From contig NHIP02000016.1 of assembly GCA_002170775.2 (NCBI GenBank), forward strand, positions 57,988-95,678: 37,691 nt of DNA. The letters are read 5' to 3'. Below the pieces are notes generated by a model. The model was not told the DNA's origin, made no database searches, and worked only from the letters and a program-made list of their open reading frames with translations. The stretch comes from Euryarchaeota archaeon TMED192. GTDB lineage: Archaea; Thermoplasmatota; Poseidoniia; Poseidoniales; Thalassarchaeaceae. Each line of letters begins with the position of its first letter. Position 1 is the stretch's first letter. The position numbers and the translations under genes are program-made. Of the stretch, positions 9,205 to 24,572 are shown one piece after another.

Positions 9205-10833
9205 ATGCCCCATGTACTTGAGACCGGATTTGAGGCGATAGCCAGCGAAAACCCCAATGGTTCACCGATGATTCGTGGATACAATATAATTGGAGGGCGA
9301 TTAGAACCTGCATCTGATGGTTCGACATTTGAATCGAAGAATCCTGCTATCCTTGCTGATTGTCTTGGAGTCTTCCCCCTATCTACCAAAGATGATGTTC
9401 ACAAAGCACTGAAGTCGGCAAAGTCGGCATTTCCCGGCTGGTCTTCTACGCCTGCTCCGACACGCGGCCAGATCATAGGCAACATGGGAAGGTTGTTGAT
9501 GGAGCACAAAGATGACCTTGTACGTCTGGAGACACGTGAAATAGGGAAGACGCTGAAAGAGAGTGCTGGAGAAATTCAAGAAGCGATAGATACGTGTCTG
9601 TTCTTCCAATCAGAAGGAAGGCGTCTGTACGGACAAACCGTCAATAGCGAGCTGCCTGACAAGGAGTTGTTCACATATCGAAGGCCCTTGGGGGTTTGTG
9701 GAATCATCAATGCGTGCAATTTTCCGTCTGCTGTGCCATTCTGGAAAATGATTCCGGCAATCATGTGTGGCAACACGTGTGTCTGGAAGTCGCCACAAGA
9801 CAGTCCTCTTCTTTCATTTGCATTGGCAAGAATAATGCATGAAGCTGGCTTACCAGATGGGGTTGTAAATCTCATTCATGGCAAAGGAAGTGGTGCTGGT
9901 CAGCATCTCGTTGATGCGGTTGATGAAGGAATGGTCAACAAGATTTCATTCACAGGTTCTACTTCGGTGGGCAAAATGATTGGAGAGATATGTGGTCGTA
10001 ATCTAGTTTCCTGCTCACTTGAGTTGGGCGGCAAAAATCCGCTAGTCATCATGCCCTCGGCCAATCTTGAGAATGCCGTAGAAGGGGCTTATTGGGCTGG
10101 ATTTGGTACTGCGGGTCAAAGATGTACAAGTCTCGGCAACCTAATTGTGCACGAAGACATCTATGATGATTTTATGGACAGTTTCATGGAAAAAGTTCGG
10201 AGTACAAAGATTGGTGATTCGATGAGTAACGATGATGTTCTTTATGGCCCAATGCTATCTGAGAAATATGCATTAGATTTTCTCAAAGGTTTGGAAATGT
10301 GTGAATCGAGTGGAGCGAAAAGGGTCTATGGAGAAGGACGAATAACAACGGATTCATCACCATCAGGCTTCGTTGCTGACGCTGAAAGTGGTGTATACAT
10401 GTGGCCTCACGTGTATGTAGATGTCACGGATGAGATGGAATGCTTCCATGAGGAGATTTTTGGACCCGCAGTCACGGTCGTCAAAGCCAAAGATTTCGAA
10501 CATGCACTCTATCTGGCAAATGCATCGCCATACGGGCTCTCCAGCGCCATTTACACGAATGACAGGCTGGAGGCATATCGATTCAAAACAGGCATAAGGG
10601 CAGGTATGACTGGCATAAACAACTCAACGACTGGTGCAGAGGCGCACCTTCCCTTCGGAGGTGTCAAGGGCTCTGGGAATGGTACCAGAGAATCTGGTAT
10701 TTGGGTGATTGAAGCATACTCATACTGGCATGCAGTCAACGATGAGCTTTCTGGAAAGCTTCAGTTGGCGCAGATGGATGTTGATGAGATCCATATCGAA
10801 GAGGCCGAGGCAGATTACGAATCTCTTGCATGA
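9205..10833 (+). CDS. aldehyde dehydrogenase, ALDH7-like
   Basis: This is a soluble NAD(P)-dependent aldehyde dehydrogenase. From the ATG at 9205 it has 542 residues. Visible landmarks are 'NACNFPSAVPFWKMIPAI', the nucleotide-binding 'FTGSTSVGK', catalytic Glu273 in 'LELGGKNP', nucleophile Cys307 in 'GQRCTS', and 'EEIFGPAVTV'. The ending 'FGGVKGSGNGTRESG' is in place. The 'NNSTTGAEAHLPFGG' stretch resembles the ALDH7 (antiquitin, aminoadipic semialdehyde) branch, which would point to lysine or other semialdehyde oxidation. Substrate specificity cannot be read with confidence. GTG codons at 9127 and 9181 are other possible starts, and none has a clear Shine-Dalgarno, so the mRNA may be leaderless. 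The acidic C-terminal extension of about 35 residues is not typical of the family. No pathway partner is adjacent. Confidence 0.9.
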   Translation: MPHVLETGFEAIASENPNGSPMIRGYNIIGGRLEPASDGSTFESKNPAILADCLGVFPLSTKDDVHKALKSAKSAFPGWSSTPAPTRGQIIGNMGRLLMEHKDDLVRLETREIGKTLKESAGEIQEAIDTCLFFQSEGRRLYGQTVNSELPDKELFTYRRPLGVCGIINACNFPSAVPFWKMIPAIMCGNTCVWKSPQDSPLLSFALARIMHEAGLPDGVVNLIHGKGSGAGQHLVDAVDEGMVNKISFTGSTSVGKMIGEICGRNLVSCSLELGGKNPLVIMPSANLENAVEGAYWAGFGTAGQRCTSLGNLIVHEDIYDDFMDSFMEKVRSTKIGDSMSNDDVLYGPMLSEKYALDFLKGLEMCESSGAKRVYGEGRITTDSSPSGFVADAESGVYMWPHVYVDVTDEMECFHEEIFGPAVTVVKAKDFEHALYLANASPYGLSSAIYTNDRLEAYRFKTGIRAGMTGINNSTTGAEAHLPFGGVKGSGNGTRESGIWVIEAYSYWHAVNDELSGKLQLAQMDVDEIHIEEAEADYESLA

Positions 10834-10898
10834 TTATCAAATATTCTTCAAATGGAATTTGTGAAAAGTTCTATCTCCCCTAGCCCTTGTCGCCATGC

Positions 10899-13800
10899 AT
10901 GAATAACAAGCGGATAGTGTCGTTTTCTCTCAGTTTATTGATGATCACATTCACAACAATAACGATTTTTACAAATCCTCTTTCCACAGAAGATTCTCTA
11001 TCTGATTCAGAAGTAAGATATGATACAAGCCATTTGCAGAATAACTCAATTGGAAGCCTTCAAGGGCACATCGATACTTATGACACTCTATCGATTGGTA
11101 TTCAGTTCACCTGCGTAGTGACTGACAACGCCAGCGTGATATGTTGGGGCAGGACAGATTACGGCGAGACAGGTATTGGTATGACTGGGAATGAAGCATA
11201 TCACAATGCTAGTTACGTTGTCGGACTAACTGGAATAACAGTGGTTGAAGTAGCTGCATACTGGGATCACGCATGTGCTTTGAGCGATATGGGCGAGGTC
11301 TACTGTTGGGGTAGGAATCATGAGGGGCAGCTTGGTAATGGCAATAGTGCGGATTCAACCACTCCAGTCCAAGTATCGTTCCCATCCGGTGTCGAGGTCG
11401 CCTCGCTTGCCCAAGGTCCGAGTGTTCATACCTGTGTAATCAGCACAAACGGCGATGGCTATTGCTGGGGCTATAATAATGCGGGACAGATAGGAAACGG
11501 CGAGGTATGCGCCCCTGTTGAAGCGACGAGTAAGTTGTCTTGTGCCGGAGGTGGTTCACTGGACCATGTTGTCACACCTCAACTAGTCAACATGCCGTCG
11601 AGCGTGGGTATAACGTCCATCAACGCGGGCGGTGAGCATACTTGCGCCACTGGTACCGATGGCGGGGTCTACTGCTGGGGGCAGGACAACAACTGCAGAG
11701 TTACGGGCGGGGATCCCGTCACAGACATGAGTGGCGATGCTGCATGTGGTTTTACTCACAGACAACCGTCTCCGAGAAAGATCATGTTCCAGAATACTGC
11801 TGTGACGATTCCTGATGCGCAAAATCTCTCGTTTACACAAGTCGTAGTTGGCTGGGTGTTCTCATGTGGTTTGGCCGATACCGGTGCCGTGATCTGCTGG
11901 GGCGCAAACACAGAGAGTCAACAGGGCATAGGTACGAACAACAACCAACCCGAAGATGTGGTTCCCACTCTGGCTATCGCTCCCTCCGGGGAACATGCCC
12001 TTAGCATATCTGCTTCAACAGCTCAAGCATGTGCACTATTCAACGAGTCTGGCGCATTCTGTTGGGGCGATAACTGGGGTGGAAATGCAGGTGATTATGA
12101 TGGCACAAATAACTGGTACTGCACCTACTCAGGGGGTTCCAATGGCGGCGGGAACCTTGATTGCGGAGATGTGTCTACACCGAATGCAGTTTGGAGCGGT
12201 GAAAACGATGACATCCACTTCACATCAGTCATCATGGGGGCGTCGAATACCTGTGGAATTATGTCCAACGGCAGTCTTTACTGCTGGGGGGCATATGCCT
12301 GGAACGGGGTGAATGGTTCGGTCCACAACACGAATACTGGGGTCAGACTCCCCTTATTCATGCCAATGCCGGGTAATGTCATAATTGCTCAAACCGATTT
12401 GGACATTGACGGCGATGGGGTACTTGTCCCATTCGACGCGTTCCCTAATGGCTGTCCTTCTGGTTGGTACCAAGACTCCTACAATTCTTGTAGTGAGGCT
12501 CCTCAGGGAGGCTATGCTGAGTCCTCAAATCCGTGGGATCTAGTTATGTGCTCACCAGGAACCTACCAACCAAACACCGGTCAAACAGAATGTGTAGAAT
12601 CGACTCCAGGATATTACGTCCCCGTCTCAGGAGGGTTTTCTCAAACGATTTGTCCAGCCGGAAGTTATCAACCCAATAGCGCAGCGGATTCTTGCATCCT
12701 GGCAGATCCTGGATATATGGTAGGAACGCCTGGAAAAATTGAGCAGACTGCCTGCAACGCTGGAAGGTTTTCATCCACTAGCGGATCGACAGACTGTGTC
12801 AGGGCACAGCCTGGTTTCTATGTATCAAATAGTGGCTCTTCAGAAGAGATTCCATGCCCACTTGGGTCATATTCGCCTTCATCGGGGTCGCTATCGTGTA
12901 TCTCTACTTCCCCCGGTGAATACACCGATACTCCAGCTTCCATACAGCCAATTTCTTGTGAACCGGGTTCCTACCAACCCGACTTCGGACAGAGTACATG
13001 TCTCCTGGCTCCTACCGGGCATTATGTCTCAATACCGATGGCTTCGACATACCAACCATGTCTCTCAGGTTACTACCAATCTGCCGAAGGGATGACTGGA
13101 TGTGAGGTCACGTCTCCCGGGTCATATACCCCGGGAGCATCCTTCACTGCACCTTTGGATTGTTCTGCAGGCACGTATCAACCCTCATCAGGGGCAGAGA
13201 GGTGTATCGATGCTTTTCCCGGCAGCTATGTTCCTTCAGAGGGAAGTATCGAGTCTACTGAATGCACCCCAGGAACATATCAACCACAGTCAGGGCAATC
13301 TGCATGTCTTGAGGCTGATTCAGGTCACTACATCACTTTAACAGCAGCGAAAAATCAAGTCCCATGTCCAGTAACTACGTTCCAACCTGAAACTGGTCAG
13401 ACGGTATGTTTGGACGCCGAACCTGGTCACTATTCAGATGGAATTGGGATGGCAGATCAGACGCCCTGCACTGAAGGTGAGTATCAACCTTCTAGCAAGT
13501 CGACGAGTTGCAAAATCGTTCCTGCTGGACATTATTCAATCGGTCTCGGTTCTGTTGATTTCATGGCTTGTATGCCTGGAACATACCAACCATCATCGGG
13601 AATGTCAGGTTGTATCGATGCTGATCAGGGCAACTATGTCGGAGAATCATCTCAATTGATGCAGACACCTTGTCCAAAGGGATCTTATCAGCCATTGGCT
13701 GCTTCCTCCGATTGTGTAAGTGCTGATGCGGGCTACTTCGTAGAGGAGGCAGGCGCCAAGGAACAGTCGCCCTGTGAGGCAGGATCTTATCAGCCAATTG

Positions 13801-14024
13801 AAGGGCGGTCGAACTGCATATATTCATCAATCAACAACTATGTTCCGGAAGCTGGATCTGCAGATCAGATAGCATGCCCATCAGGAGAACATCAACCAAT
13901 GCCGGGTCAGATCGGCTGTGTTGGGGAAGATGAAGAGGGATTGCTCCCAGGATTCTCTTCTTTCATGGTCCTCATCGCACTAATGGGTGCTGCATCGATG
14001 ATCTCTGCTCGGAAGCTGGACTGA
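10899..14024 (+). CDS. secreted RCC1-repeat and GCC2/GCC3-like Cys-rich protein with PGF-CTERM-like tail
   Basis: The protein has 1041 residues from the ATG at 10899; a TTG at 10887 is also possible. A signal peptide (N-region Asn-Lys-Arg, hydrophobic core to about residue 26) precedes seven RCC1-type blades (about residues 65-475). Each blade has a C-x(n)-CWG core, for example 'VYCWGRNHEGQLGNG'. A 'DIDGDGVLVPFDAFPNG' acidic loop follows. Next come 14 Cys-rich units of about 34 residues like eukaryotic GCC2/GCC3 ephrin-receptor-type repeats. The end is an acidic hinge, 'LLPGFSS' (PGF at 1017-1019), a hydrophobic helix and Arg-Lys. That is the layout of PGF-CTERM proteins processed by archaeosortase. 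It is probably a cell-surface adhesin or recognition protein. The paired cysteines predict a disulfide-rich rod carrying a beta-propeller. No archaeosortase is in the window. Confidence 0.9.
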   Translation: MNNKRIVSFSLSLLMITFTTITIFTNPLSTEDSLSDSEVRYDTSHLQNNSIGSLQGHIDTYDTLSIGIQFTCVVTDNASVICWGRTDYGETGIGMTGNEAYHNASYVVGLTGITVVEVAAYWDHACALSDMGEVYCWGRNHEGQLGNGNSADSTTPVQVSFPSGVEVASLAQGPSVHTCVISTNGDGYCWGYNNAGQIGNGEVCAPVEATSKLSCAGGGSLDHVVTPQLVNMPSSVGITSINAGGEHTCATGTDGGVYCWGQDNNCRVTGGDPVTDMSGDAACGFTHRQPSPRKIMFQNTAVTIPDAQNLSFTQVVVGWVFSCGLADTGAVICWGANTESQQGIGTNNNQPEDVVPTLAIAPSGEHALSISASTAQACALFNESGAFCWGDNWGGNAGDYDGTNNWYCTYSGGSNGGGNLDCGDVSTPNAVWSGENDDIHFTSVIMGASNTCGIMSNGSLYCWGAYAWNGVNGSVHNTNTGVRLPLFMPMPGNVIIAQTDLDIDGDGVLVPFDAFPNGCPSGWYQDSYNSCSEAPQGGYAESSNPWDLVMCSPGTYQPNTGQTECVESTPGYYVPVSGGFSQTICPAGSYQPNSAADSCILADPGYMVGTPGKIEQTACNAGRFSSTSGSTDCVRAQPGFYVSNSGSSEEIPCPLGSYSPSSGSLSCISTSPGEYTDTPASIQPISCEPGSYQPDFGQSTCLLAPTGHYVSIPMASTYQPCLSGYYQSAEGMTGCEVTSPGSYTPGASFTAPLDCSAGTYQPSSGAERCIDAFPGSYVPSEGSIESTECTPGTYQPQSGQSACLEADSGHYITLTAAKNQVPCPVTTFQPETGQTVCLDAEPGHYSDGIGMADQTPCTEGEYQPSSKSTSCKIVPAGHYSIGLGSVDFMACMPGTYQPSSGMSGCIDADQGNYVGESSQLMQTPCPKGSYQPLAASSDCVSADAGYFVEEAGAKEQSPCEAGSYQPIEGRSNCIYSSINNYVPEAGSADQIACPSGEHQPMPGQIGCVGEDEEGLLPGFSSFMVLIALMGAASMISARKLD
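12548..13919 (+). repeat. 14 tandem Cys-rich protein repeats of about 102 bases
   Basis: Each unit encodes a C-x13-C core such as 'CSPGTYQPNTGQTEC', followed by about 18 residues of the type 'A-x-PG-x-Y-V'. The protein consensus, including Tyr-Gln-Pro, is better kept than the DNA, so these are old, selected repeats rather than recent duplications. A degenerate unit at about 12453 ('CPSGWYQDSYNSC') precedes them. Confidence 0.85.
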
Positions 14025-21441: not shown

Positions 21442-21520
21442 GCTATCTCCCCATTGACGATGAACTTGGGTGTTGCTATTCACACGACATATTGAAGCAG
21501 GGGCCCAATTGCAGGAAACC

Positions 21521-23020
21521 ATGGAGAATCAGCCGATAGGGACGAATCAGATTCTCTTATTGCTTGGAATAGCTCTTCTTACGTTAAATGGAGTGTTCTC
21601 TATTTTAATCGGGTTTATGCTATCGATGTGGTATGTTAGTATCATTATTCTAGAGCATCGGGGCGTTCTGGATAAATGGAATTCAACTAGAGTACTTGGC
21701 CTGATACTTATGATTAGGACCAATCGGGGGAAAAAGGCTGCAGAATGGATCGCTCGTCCCCGACGTCTTTGGCGTATTTTTGGAGAGATGTCCATTTGGC
21801 TCTGCTTTAGTGTCATGATTCTGCTAATTATCGGCATCCTTGCAAGTGCTCTTCAAACTGCAAGAGCTCCGGCTGAACAGCAAGTTCTCCCTGCTACAGA
21901 CATACTTTTCATCCCTGGTGTGACGAGTTTCGTACCAATATTCTGGCCTCTTCTAGCACTAATCGTAACAGTAGTGATTCACGAATATGGGCATGGACTT
22001 CAGGCAAGAGCACATGGAATGCGGATTCGAAGTTTTGGAGTGCTACTCGCAGGAATCATTCCAGTTGGGGCTTTTTATGAGCCCGAGCAAGAAGAAATCC
22101 GAATCGCGCCCTCGCGGGAAAGACTTCGACTGTTCGCAGCTGGGCCATCAATAAATATCGTTCTGACGTATGTTCTGATTATTTTACTGGCAGGGGCGTC
22201 ACATGGCCTCGTAGCGACTGAGAAAGGAGTTTATGCAGTAGGTATTGTTGAAGACTCAGGGGCTGAAGAGGCGGGCCTCCTGCCGTATGAATTGATTATG
22301 CAGGTAGATGACATTACTCTCGAGGATCCTGAAGATTTGACCAATGTACTTGATGCGCATGTGGCGGGGGACACGATTCTTCTGACCGTCGGAACTAATC
22401 CATTCTATGGGCCTATGGAAACTAGAACAATGGAAGTAACACTCACAGACAAGAAGGCCTACTATTACGAATTATGTGGGGAAGATTCGGAATGCAAATC
22501 TAACGTTGACCAGGCAGGAATAGAAGAGGGCGAGGGTTTTCTTGGGGTTAGCGGCATAAAGTCTGCAGATAGTGCCGCCCGAGTATATGGGCTCCCGTTT
22601 GAGGATGGTCTGACCATAGGACAGCGTACAATTTTGGTGGCCTTTTCCCCCTTGTTATTTGGAGCGATTCCGATTCAGAACCAAGGACAGACTATGGTGC
22701 TGCAGGAGAGGGCTTTCCTGAGTGCTGGAGAAGGGCTGATTCCCTCTATTTTCGGAACAGTTGGGATGTTGGGGCTCTTTGACTTCCTATTCTGGATAAT
22801 GTGGATCAGTTTCCTACTAGGTGTTGCAAATCTGATACCCCTGATACCTTTTGATGGGGGGCATATGGTTAGGGATGCAGGACACATAGTAGCAAAGAAG
22901 ATTATGCCTGGTTCTAATCCCTTGAAAATTGAACGTCTCGCTGATAGGTTGAGTGGTTACAGCAGCCTACTCGTCCTCGCCTTGGTTATGATCCCCATCA
23001 TTCTCCCCCGATTCTTCTAG
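21521..23020 (+). CDS. site-2 protease family (M50) membrane metalloprotease with PDZ domain
   Basis: The protein has 499 residues from the ATG at 21521. Several N-terminal helices precede 'VTVVIHEYGHGLQ', the zinc-binding HExxH (HEYGH, about residue 154) in a membrane helix. A PDZ-like domain lies at about 238-308 ('VGIVEDSGAEEAGLLPYELI'). Near the C-terminus 'ANLIPLIPFDGGH' (about 437-448) is the second zinc motif, usually N-x-x-P-x-x-x-LDGG and here with Phe before Asp. Such proteases cut transmembrane segments in regulated intramembrane proteolysis. The last 54 bases overlap the convergent signal peptidase gene. A cysteine-containing insert (about 318-335) in the outer loop is unusual. 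Substrates are unknown. Confidence 0.92.
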   Translation: MENQPIGTNQILLLLGIALLTLNGVFSILIGFMLSMWYVSIIILEHRGVLDKWNSTRVLGLILMIRTNRGKKAAEWIARPRRLWRIFGEMSIWLCFSVMILLIIGILASALQTARAPAEQQVLPATDILFIPGVTSFVPIFWPLLALIVTVVIHEYGHGLQARAHGMRIRSFGVLLAGIIPVGAFYEPEQEEIRIAPSRERLRLFAAGPSINIVLTYVLIILLAGASHGLVATEKGVYAVGIVEDSGAEEAGLLPYELIMQVDDITLEDPEDLTNVLDAHVAGDTILLTVGTNPFYGPMETRTMEVTLTDKKAYYYELCGEDSECKSNVDQAGIEEGEGFLGVSGIKSADSAARVYGLPFEDGLTIGQRTILVAFSPLLFGAIPIQNQGQTMVLQERAFLSAGEGLIPSIFGTVGMLGLFDFLFWIMWISFLLGVANLIPLIPFDGGHMVRDAGHIVAKKIMPGSNPLKIERLADRLSGYSSLLVLALVMIPIILPRFF

Positions 23021-23818
23021 ATCGTTTCTAAATGAGTCGATAATGAGTGGTGCAGCGATTATGCCGCCTATCACTAATGCAAGTTTCATCCAGCTAGATG
23101 ACGGTACTGCAGGCCATGCGCCAGTCGTTAGAAGTTTTATTGATCCGAGCCAAGGGATTTCAGTGGAAGCGATACCAATAACCCACTCGTCTTTGACGGC
23201 GAGAACCGGGTTACCATTCTCATCCTTGAGTCCTTGGCTCATTATGTACTGGTCAGAAGCATCTCTATCTGTGGCTCTGAGTTGATCAATCCTACATCCA
23301 TTCGATTTTTCATTATCTCCTGTTGTGAGATACCCCTCGTGACTAGGTATCCATCGGTCGATTCTCAGACTTCCGCCATGGGGATAGCACTCGTATTGAA
23401 GGGTCACGGATATCTCATCCACGCCTCTTAAATCAGTACCAGGTACATCCCACCCACCAGATTCATTGTTAATCGCCTTGAGTATGGCTCTATGAATCAC
23501 CGGAGTATCGCTTCCGCCATTCTTCTTGTAGATTATGACATCACCGGGCATACCGTGTCTTTCATACCCTTGATGTGGACTGCCTTCCTGAATTGACTCA
23601 GCGAATGTTATGATTCGATCCGCTCTTTCTGGGGCAGTTACCAGGATGAGGTCACCAGCGTCTATAGCTCCTACCTCACCATCCTCTGAATGAATCATGG
23701 AATTACTCTCGACCACAACAAGAGGTGGCCATGAACCGGTGATGGCCCACAAGCCGGACAGTATGATGACGACCAATGAAATGGATATCATTGCCTCCCT
23801 GATTATCGACGATGCCAT
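22967..23818 (-). CDS. archaeal-type signal peptidase I
   Basis: The protein has 283 residues from the ATG at 23818, one base after the stop of the upstream gene (TGA-g-ATG). An N-terminal helix is followed by 'VVVESNSMIHSED' with the nucleophile Ser, 'GMPGDVIIYKK', and 'TPVIHRAI', where His replaces the Lys base of bacterial enzymes as in archaeal and ER Sec11. 'GYLTTGDNEKSNGCRID' holds the conserved acidic residues. A second helix near the C-terminus and an acidic tail finish it. It removes signal peptides from exported proteins. The last 54 coding bases are shared with the convergent protease gene. An ATG at 23830 would overlap the upstream gene. Confidence 0.92.
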   Translation of the reverse strand: MASSIIREAMISISLVVIILSGLWAITGSWPPLVVVESNSMIHSEDGEVGAIDAGDLILVTAPERADRIITFAESIQEGSPHQGYERHGMPGDVIIYKKNGGSDTPVIHRAILKAINNESGGWDVPGTDLRGVDEISVTLQYECYPHGGSLRIDRWIPSHEGYLTTGDNEKSNGCRIDQLRATDRDASDQYIMSQGLKDENGNPVLAVKDEWVIGIASTEIPWLGSIKLLTTGAWPAVPSSSWMKLALVIGGIIAAPLIIDSFRNDLEESGENDGDHNQGEDE

Positions 23819-23819
23819 C

Positions 23820-24572
23820 TCATTCCACATCCTCTTCTATAGAACGAGCAGGGGTCGTCATCCACAATAACATCGAAAGTGCAAGTGCGATTACGGCGCT
23901 AACAGAATCAATATGCGGCGGCGGGTGGCTTTGTACTGGGTTCCCTACAATCATGTCATTTAAGGATCGAGAAGAAGCATCAAGGCCACCGAATACCGAT
24001 TCAAACACTATGAGTATAAGGAAAAAGGACGTGAGGAAAATTAGTGCTCTGTGTGTTTCCACTTTTTTCAGGGCGTTGAGATGTGGGAGAATAATTGAAA
24101 TCTTGGATCTCGGATTGGACCACCACGAGACTGACTCGGCACTATTTTTTGGACGTTCGCTCCATCTACGATTGGGTTTAATCTCAAGATTATGATACAC
24201 TTCTAGTAATCTGGATCTGTATCCGGCACCAAGCGCCTCTGCCGCATCCTCAGCCTCCTTCCTGCGCCTGATTACTTCAGTTCTAGAATCCAATGCACAA
24301 ATCTCTTCGAAGGTATCTCTAAGCGACAAGTAGGCGAAAAACTCGGGGAGCAGGAAGAAGCATCCTATGCCACCGACAATGAGGCAAGCCCAACTGAATG
24401 GGACCATGGATGAGGTTGCTGGGTCAGTTGCTCCTCCGAGCATCAAGAATAGGAGACCCCAGCCCATAGCACCTGCAAATAATATCGATGTGTAGGCCGT
24501 GACGGAGTAGTGTATGTCAGGATTAGCCCTCCACCATTTTCGAATCCTCTGTGTCGGCGACAGGCGGGCCAC
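23820..24572 (-). CDS. four-helix membrane protein, unknown, upstream of signal peptidase
   Basis: The protein has 250 residues with a GTG start at 24572. A basic N-terminus is followed by helices near residues 24-46 and 58-82, a charged cytosolic segment (about 83-170), and helices near 173-193 and 222-240. The segment contains 'EVIRRRKEAEDAAEALGAGY', a likely coiled helix. No family is recognised. Its stop lies one base before the preferred signal-peptidase start, so the two are translationally coupled, and a role in secretion or in regulating the peptidase is a reasonable guess. The upstream 89 bases separate it from the divergent Lhr gene and should contain both promoters. Confidence 0.7.
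   Translation of the reverse strand: MARLSPTQRIRKWWRANPDIHYSVTAYTSILFAGAMGWGLLFLMLGGATDPATSSMVPFSWACLIVGGIGCFFLLPEFFAYLSLRDTFEEICALDSRTEVIRRRKEAEDAAEALGAGYRSRLLEVYHNLEIKPNRRWSERPKNSAESVSWWSNPRSKISIILPHLNALKKVETHRALIFLTSFFLILIVFESVFGGLDASSRSLNDMIVGNPVQSHPPPHIDSVSAVIALALSMLLWMTTPARSIEEDVE

Follow-up and report, generated by a model that had tools for sequence, protein, structure and literature searches.

The seven-bladed RCC1 fold is known from UVR8, the RLD of HERC2 and RCC1 itself, and RCC1 propellers with paired cysteines are widespread in bacteria (Gemmatimonadota, Deltaproteobacteria and others). Animal proteins of the Ephrin_rec_like family (PF07699, which we take to be the model once named GCC2_GCC3), such as ELAPOR1 and the Eph receptors, carry GCC2/GCC3 units in receptor contexts. 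Haloarchaeal PGF-CTERM proteins end in a PGF motif, a hydrophobic span and a basic tail, in genomes that encode archaeosortase A. In MST1, the shaft protein of the Chlamydomonas mastigoneme (8wa2, 9b4h and 8tx1), residues 1176–1853 form one 26-nm growth factor receptor cysteine-rich domain with 26 disulfides, which makes antiparallel dimers within the filament; further parts of the protein are a polyproline helix and Ig-like domains, nine in number (PMC11015965).

We compared with these systems a protein encoded in a 37,691-nucleotide stretch of DNA (the window) from a Marine Group IIb archaeon (Ca. Thalassarchaeaceae), an origin that bears out the archaeal host assumed in an earlier reading of the letters alone (the sequence-only reading). 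The source assembly comprises 1.44 Mb in 16 contigs and is 87% complete; all genomes compared are metagenome-assembled genomes (MAGs). The open reading frame is complete, with its ATG at 10899 and a stop codon ending at 14024 on the window's + strand. It encodes, in order, a predicted signal, a seven-bladed cysteine-paired RCC1 propeller, a DxDxDG linker, fourteen GCC2/GCC3 units and an LLPGF-hydrophobic-basic tail:

10899–14024, + strand: whole gene, predicted RCC1-GCC surface protein of 1041 aa (ORF; Pfam; orthologues in 11/11 genus genomes).
10899–10985, + strand: predicted signal peptide, about aa 1–29 (sequence inspection: hydrophobic stretch after NNKR).
11076–12398, + strand: head, a seven-bladed RCC1 propeller, aa 60–500 (Pfam RCC1/RCC1_2/WD40_RLD; Foldseek; seven CWG motifs).
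12399–12452, + strand: linker with a DxDxDGxxxxFD loop (aa 502–513), putative calcium-binding hinge (residues invariant in 21 relatives).
12453–13928, + strand: rod, a C519/C531 cap and fourteen 34-aa GCC2/GCC3 units, aa 519–1010, 30 cysteines (PF07699; cysteine spacing; AlphaFold2; Foldseek).
13941–14021, + strand: predicted C-terminal anchor, LLPGF, hydrophobic span and ARKLD, aa 1015–1041, PGF-CTERM-like (layout; LLPGF in 10/11 orthologues).

All three RCC1 repeat models (PF00415, PF13540 and PF25390) exceeded their Pfam gathering cut-offs in the head, with WD40_RLD at 165 bits (cut-off 150), RCC1_2 at 134.1 (22) and RCC1 at 67.6 (21.7). Seven CWG motifs mark the blades, each with one cysteine pair, and three further pairs lie in loops (204/215, 266/283 and 408/422). 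The best Foldseek matches were UVR8, HERC2 and RCC1, and the superposition on UVR8 (TM 0.84 by target, E 1e-25) agrees with a seven-bladed fold. Sequence comparison likewise matched RCC1-like propellers. The full-length model, mediocre overall (pLDDT 66), recovered the propeller with low-confidence loops in the head and also matched Chlamydomonas mastigoneme structures. Unlike UVR8, HERC2 and RCC1, the archaeal protein is extracellular by its anatomy, with a cysteine pair in every blade and additional cysteine loops. We saw no sign that it acts as a Ran-GEF, photoreceptor or ubiquitin ligase, and the Ran-GEF activity of the founding RCC1 member is not expected in a predicted extracellular protein. 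The bacterial cysteine-paired proteins have the same repeated C...CWG blades, at 22–31% identity. Of the seven N-glycosylation sequons, six fall in the head, whereas the rod has none. The source genome also encodes a second RCC1 surface-type protein, a 4259-aa giant with many RCC1 blades and Ig-like and TSP3-like repeats but no GCC units (L057:2598–15374, − strand, contig C12).

Between head and rod, the linker reads DLDIDGDG...FD, and the invariance of D502, D504, D506, G507, F512 and D513 in 21 relatives suggests a calcium-bound hinge. The rod matched Ephrin_rec_like at 120.6 bits (cut-off 23.1) in 11 separate stretches. After an irregular pair at the head end (C519/C531), the spacing of its cysteines switches regularly between 14 and 20 residues over C551–C1007, with no indel, giving 14 units of exactly 34 aa; with Pfam scores far above the cut-offs, the RCC1 propeller and 14 GCC2/GCC3 repeats originally described at 10899–14024 are upheld. 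The units share on average 35% amino acid and 45% nucleotide identity, and the array is therefore old. Since they differ at about 65% of protein positions, their strict 34-aa length would be held by selection rather than be a trace of recent duplication. From first to last cysteine the rod measures 489 aa throughout the genus.

Modelled alone, the rod was predicted with confidence by AlphaFold2 (pLDDT 90.8), in keeping with the surface-type anatomy proposed earlier. It superposes on the cysteine-rich shaft of MST1 (Foldseek TM 0.75 normalised by the rod, E about 1e-24, rmsd 6.6–7.0 Å), and more weakly on ELAPOR1. This supports the suggested link of GCC repeats to eukaryotes, here as kinship with extracellular cysteine-rich rods. 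A PDB search with the rod sequence gave no match, and the kinship with MST1 emerged from fold comparison only. What the two proteins share is one long, continuous rod of the growth-factor-receptor type. The Ig-like domains and polyproline helix of MST1 are absent from the archaeal protein's sequence and Pfam result, which has its RCC1 head and PGF-like tail in their stead; whereas the animal proteins carry GCC units in receptor contexts, its 14 units, all of one length, form a single unbroken array. Scaled from MST1 (26 nm per 678 aa), the rod would be about 19 nm long. The protein has 50 cysteines, whose disulfides are predicted from cysteine spacing and fold. The expectation that the organism can form disulfides outside the cell fared less well: neither VKOR nor Thioredoxin_4 (DsbA-type) homologues were found in the 87%-complete source genome.

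The tail, LLPGFSSFMVLIALMGAASMISARKLD, places a PGF motif, a single hydrophobic span and a basic end at the extreme C-terminus, which is the PGF-CTERM layout, and LLPGF is retained in 10 of the 11 genus orthologues. The PGF-CTERM model itself (TIGR04126, cut-off 24.5 bits) gave no score, so that by the curated model the tail lies outside PGF-CTERM; two orthologue tails reach 21.2–21.6 bits. Thus, of the three models named in the sequence-only reading, RCC1 and GCC matched strongly and PGF-CTERM did not, and a PGF-CTERM-like tail stands on layout and conservation. Compared with haloarchaeal PGF-CTERM proteins, the protein falls below the TIGR04126 cut-off and has no S-layer domain. The one divergent orthologue (L077, genome G002) reads LLPALG in place of LLPGF, yet G002 encodes archaeosortase A.

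The search for an archaeosortase in the source genome was successful, with archaeosortase A at 87.9 bits against the TIGR04125 cut-off of 75; its SCSALQS, NAFRN and FEFAHS motifs presumably hold the candidate catalytic Cys, Arg and His. The enzyme was found in 88 of 98 relatives. An apparent absence from four sister MAGs was rejected because an adjoining gene, which two other genus members share at 90% identity, was missing from the same four, placing the region outside the bins. Archaeosortase anchoring of the predicted tail is thus likely. Two further source-genome proteins with near-threshold TIGR04126 tails (22.9–23.9 bits) are likely substrates by their sequence: a TSP3-repeat protein of 815 aa (L059:2633–5077, + strand) and one of 523 aa (L060:5226–6794, − strand).

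We found the protein matched in 112 of 146 related genomes (E ≤ 1e-10), many with full RCC1+GCC proteins, so that the combination, initially judged unusual, is not rare within its own lineage. Relatives joining RCC1 and GCC occur throughout the family and in some Poseidoniaceae. In 20 regions from 19 of the matching genomes, six or seven CWG blades with 13–15 GCC motifs were common, and longer RCC1-GCC forms of about 1700 aa were also present. The PGF-like ending is characteristic of the source genus; in other genera the relatives mostly finish with a transmembrane helix and, after it, a charged tail. Two other Thalassarchaeaceae genomes (L039 and L048) each hold three tandem RCC1-GCC genes, every one with a different C-terminal tail, which is a local expansion of the family. 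PF07699 occurs in 41 of 293 Thermoplasmatota genomes, all 41 within the two Poseidoniales families, and in the source genome the RCC1-GCC protein is its sole representative.

The search for GCC units beyond Thermoplasmatota covered 15 genomes of bacteria, 14 controls, and sets of plasmids, phages and viruses, and the combination may thus also occur outside Poseidoniales. The 15 bacterial genomes, chosen for cysteine-paired RCC1 proteins, gave no credible PF07699 match, one candidate being rejected because its locus was without any GCC protein. The loci of the bacterial proteins lack the GCC rod, unlike the archaeal gene, but the wide spread of cysteine-paired propellers in bacteria tempers the rarity first proposed for the combination. 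The plasmid set had no match to the rod, phage records matched weakly and over the propeller only, and viral contigs contained RCC1-only relatives, none with the rod. We found no open-licence paper that deals with RCC1 or GCC proteins of Marine Group II.

Within the genus the gene is fixed in place, with an orthologue in 11 of 11 genomes (the source included). All 11 loci have the order AAA ATPase, aldehyde dehydrogenase, RCC1-GCC gene, succinate dehydrogenase genes, the last seen only where the contig extends that far and synteny judged within each contig's reach. The gene is under purifying selection (dN/dS 0.08–0.20). One orthologue in archaeal-type gene order lies on a contig whose title names an Acidimicrobiaceae bacterium (isolate EAC9; L075), and the organism label of that record looks wrong. 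Elsewhere in the window, an RseP-like intramembrane metalloprotease gene (21470–23020, + strand) and an adjoining gene that weakly matches archaeal signal peptidase I (22967–23830, − strand) overlap at their 3' ends.

The history of the gene itself is divided. Alleles were compared in group A (the window, L071 and L072), group B (L073, L074 and L081) and group C (L076, L078, L079 and L080). Compared with groups A and B, the neighbouring genes of the window show 81–100% identity, the RCC1-GCC protein only 66–78%. Three groups have a single unrooted topology, which makes tree topology uninformative on a swap, and we therefore used synonymous divergence. At fourfold sites, where values near 0.7 are close to saturation, the flanks diverge by 0.33 (A-B), 0.71 (A-C) and 0.71 (B-C), and the rod (aa 607–1010) agrees with them at 0.42, 0.69 and 0.69. 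The head (aa 60–596) gives 0.72, 0.72 and 0.38. Head and rod therefore have different histories. The protein level repeats the pattern, with A-B, A-C and B-C values of.57,.57 and.84 in the head and.82,.55 and.59 in the rod. At sites that distinguish A from C, the B alleles are C-type almost throughout as far as aa 597 and turn A-type at aa 606 and beyond, with the identical breakpoint (aa 597–606) in all three B genomes. In the nucleotide identity profile the upstream edge is reached at about 10.8 kb, where the aldehyde dehydrogenase gene ends, which makes the cassette about 1.9 kb long; it covers the signal, propeller, linker and first one and a half rod units:

10800–12715, + strand: counterpart of the head cassette exchanged in group B, from the aldehyde dehydrogenase end to rod unit 2 (nucleotide identity profile, informative sites, fourfold sites).

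The B genomes are thus close to A except in the head, and the B head comes from a C-like lineage. Entry of a C-type head into B is the simplest direction; a second exchange, in A or C, is possible given the near-saturated large distances. Fourfold divergence between A and B is.51–.56 in the RCC1-GCC gene against.09–.47 in other window genes, while between two B genomes it is.13 against.25–.47. Among 25 other comparable genes of the 27 in the window, none had the head-exchange pattern, leaving this gene the sole outlier. A simple difference in rate was rejected, since B-B and B-C are less diverged, and A-B more diverged, than it would allow. In an AU test the flanks did not reject the gene's groups at 0.05 (p 0.06–0.07), a weak opposition only. 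L073 and L081, both of group B, diverge by 0.35 in the flanks and 0.12 in the gene, from which the B allele seems to have spread further after the exchange. In group C, L076 and L078 diverge by 0.29 in the gene and 0.61 in the flanks, probably reflecting whole-gene exchange. Every sequence comes from MAGs, and chimeric contigs from assembly or binning could in principle mimic a swap. We consider such an artefact very improbable, because one breakpoint recurs in three separate genome records on contigs with intact flanks on both sides, B heads are at once too near C and too far from A, and they differ from one another (L073-L081 gene divergence.12) and so are not one copied contig.

The anatomy of anchor, stiff stalk and broad head is that of a receptor or adhesin, and exchange of the head points to an exposed, diversifying module. 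On balance we favour an archaeosortase-anchored, stalked recognition or adhesion protein with an exposed head subject to diversifying selection. The N-terminal signal would export the protein, and archaeosortase A, which the genome encodes, would process and lipid-link the LLPGF-transmembrane-basic tail. The fourteen disulfide-stapled units, whose fold is confidently predicted, would form a stiff rod holding the propeller above the cell, where it would meet the outside world. By synonymous divergence, the propeller has moved between genus lineages as a cassette while rod and neighbouring genes track the species relationship. The driver is probably diversifying selection that viruses, grazers or changing ligands exert on an exposed binding surface. 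With dN/dS low, it is the cassette exchange, rather than any surplus of replacements, that suggests selection for diversity, and the exchange could also have arisen by neutral recombination. Recognition of prey or particles by the predicted head, as first suggested, is possible.

Alternatively, the protein might be structural, its rods packing laterally or pairing as in MST1 into hairs or a coat with the head as a cap. The superposition on the MST1 shaft, whose cysteine-rich domains form antiparallel dimers and filaments (PMC11015965), and the constant rod length are consistent with this. We nevertheless regard an envelope role as unlikely, since the Ig domains and polyproline helix of MST1 are missing and the part exchanged between lineages is the head, not the rod. 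We would give similarly little weight to a nutritional role, in which the head captures algal or particulate polymers for secreted enzymes. Polymer binding is common among propellers, which counts in its favour. Marine Group II archaea are also considered degraders of proteins and lipids that make use of particles (PMC6461757). Against polymer capture, the Pfam result holds no enzymatic domain, no polymer-binding signature was found, and exchange of a surface head fits recognition by antagonists at least equally well. Recent acquisition from an alga or other eukaryote, with no settled archaeal role, is hardly credible: the closest solved structure to the rod is algal, but rod identity to MST1 is about 20%, the gene shows genus-wide synteny, purifying selection and a wide Poseidoniales family, and the propeller type is widespread in bacteria. 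The GCC module by itself could have been transferred in the distant past.

Returning to the recognition or adhesion protein we favour, its bearers belong to Marine Group II, which is uncultured and ranks among the surface ocean's most abundant archaea. To our knowledge, their cell surface is known from genomes alone. Until now, adhesion in the group has been ascribed to archaeal flagella, thrombospondin-type proteins and flotillin (PMC6461757), and reports of viruses of Marine Group II are cited in PMC7838436. More speculatively, and as something of a long shot, Poseidoniales may bear modular stalked receptors in which RCC1 head cassettes are swapped between species, serotype-like, on a conserved rod, with rods forming mastigoneme-like hairs and the GCC rod a fibre module shared with algae. 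The rod offers a structural link, open to test, between an archaeal surface protein and the algal mastigoneme shaft. A head swapped on a kept rod is what would be expected where viruses, grazers or binding partners recognise the protein. This widespread, predicted-anchored head-on-rod protein is a concrete candidate for virus, grazer or particle recognition on Marine Group II.
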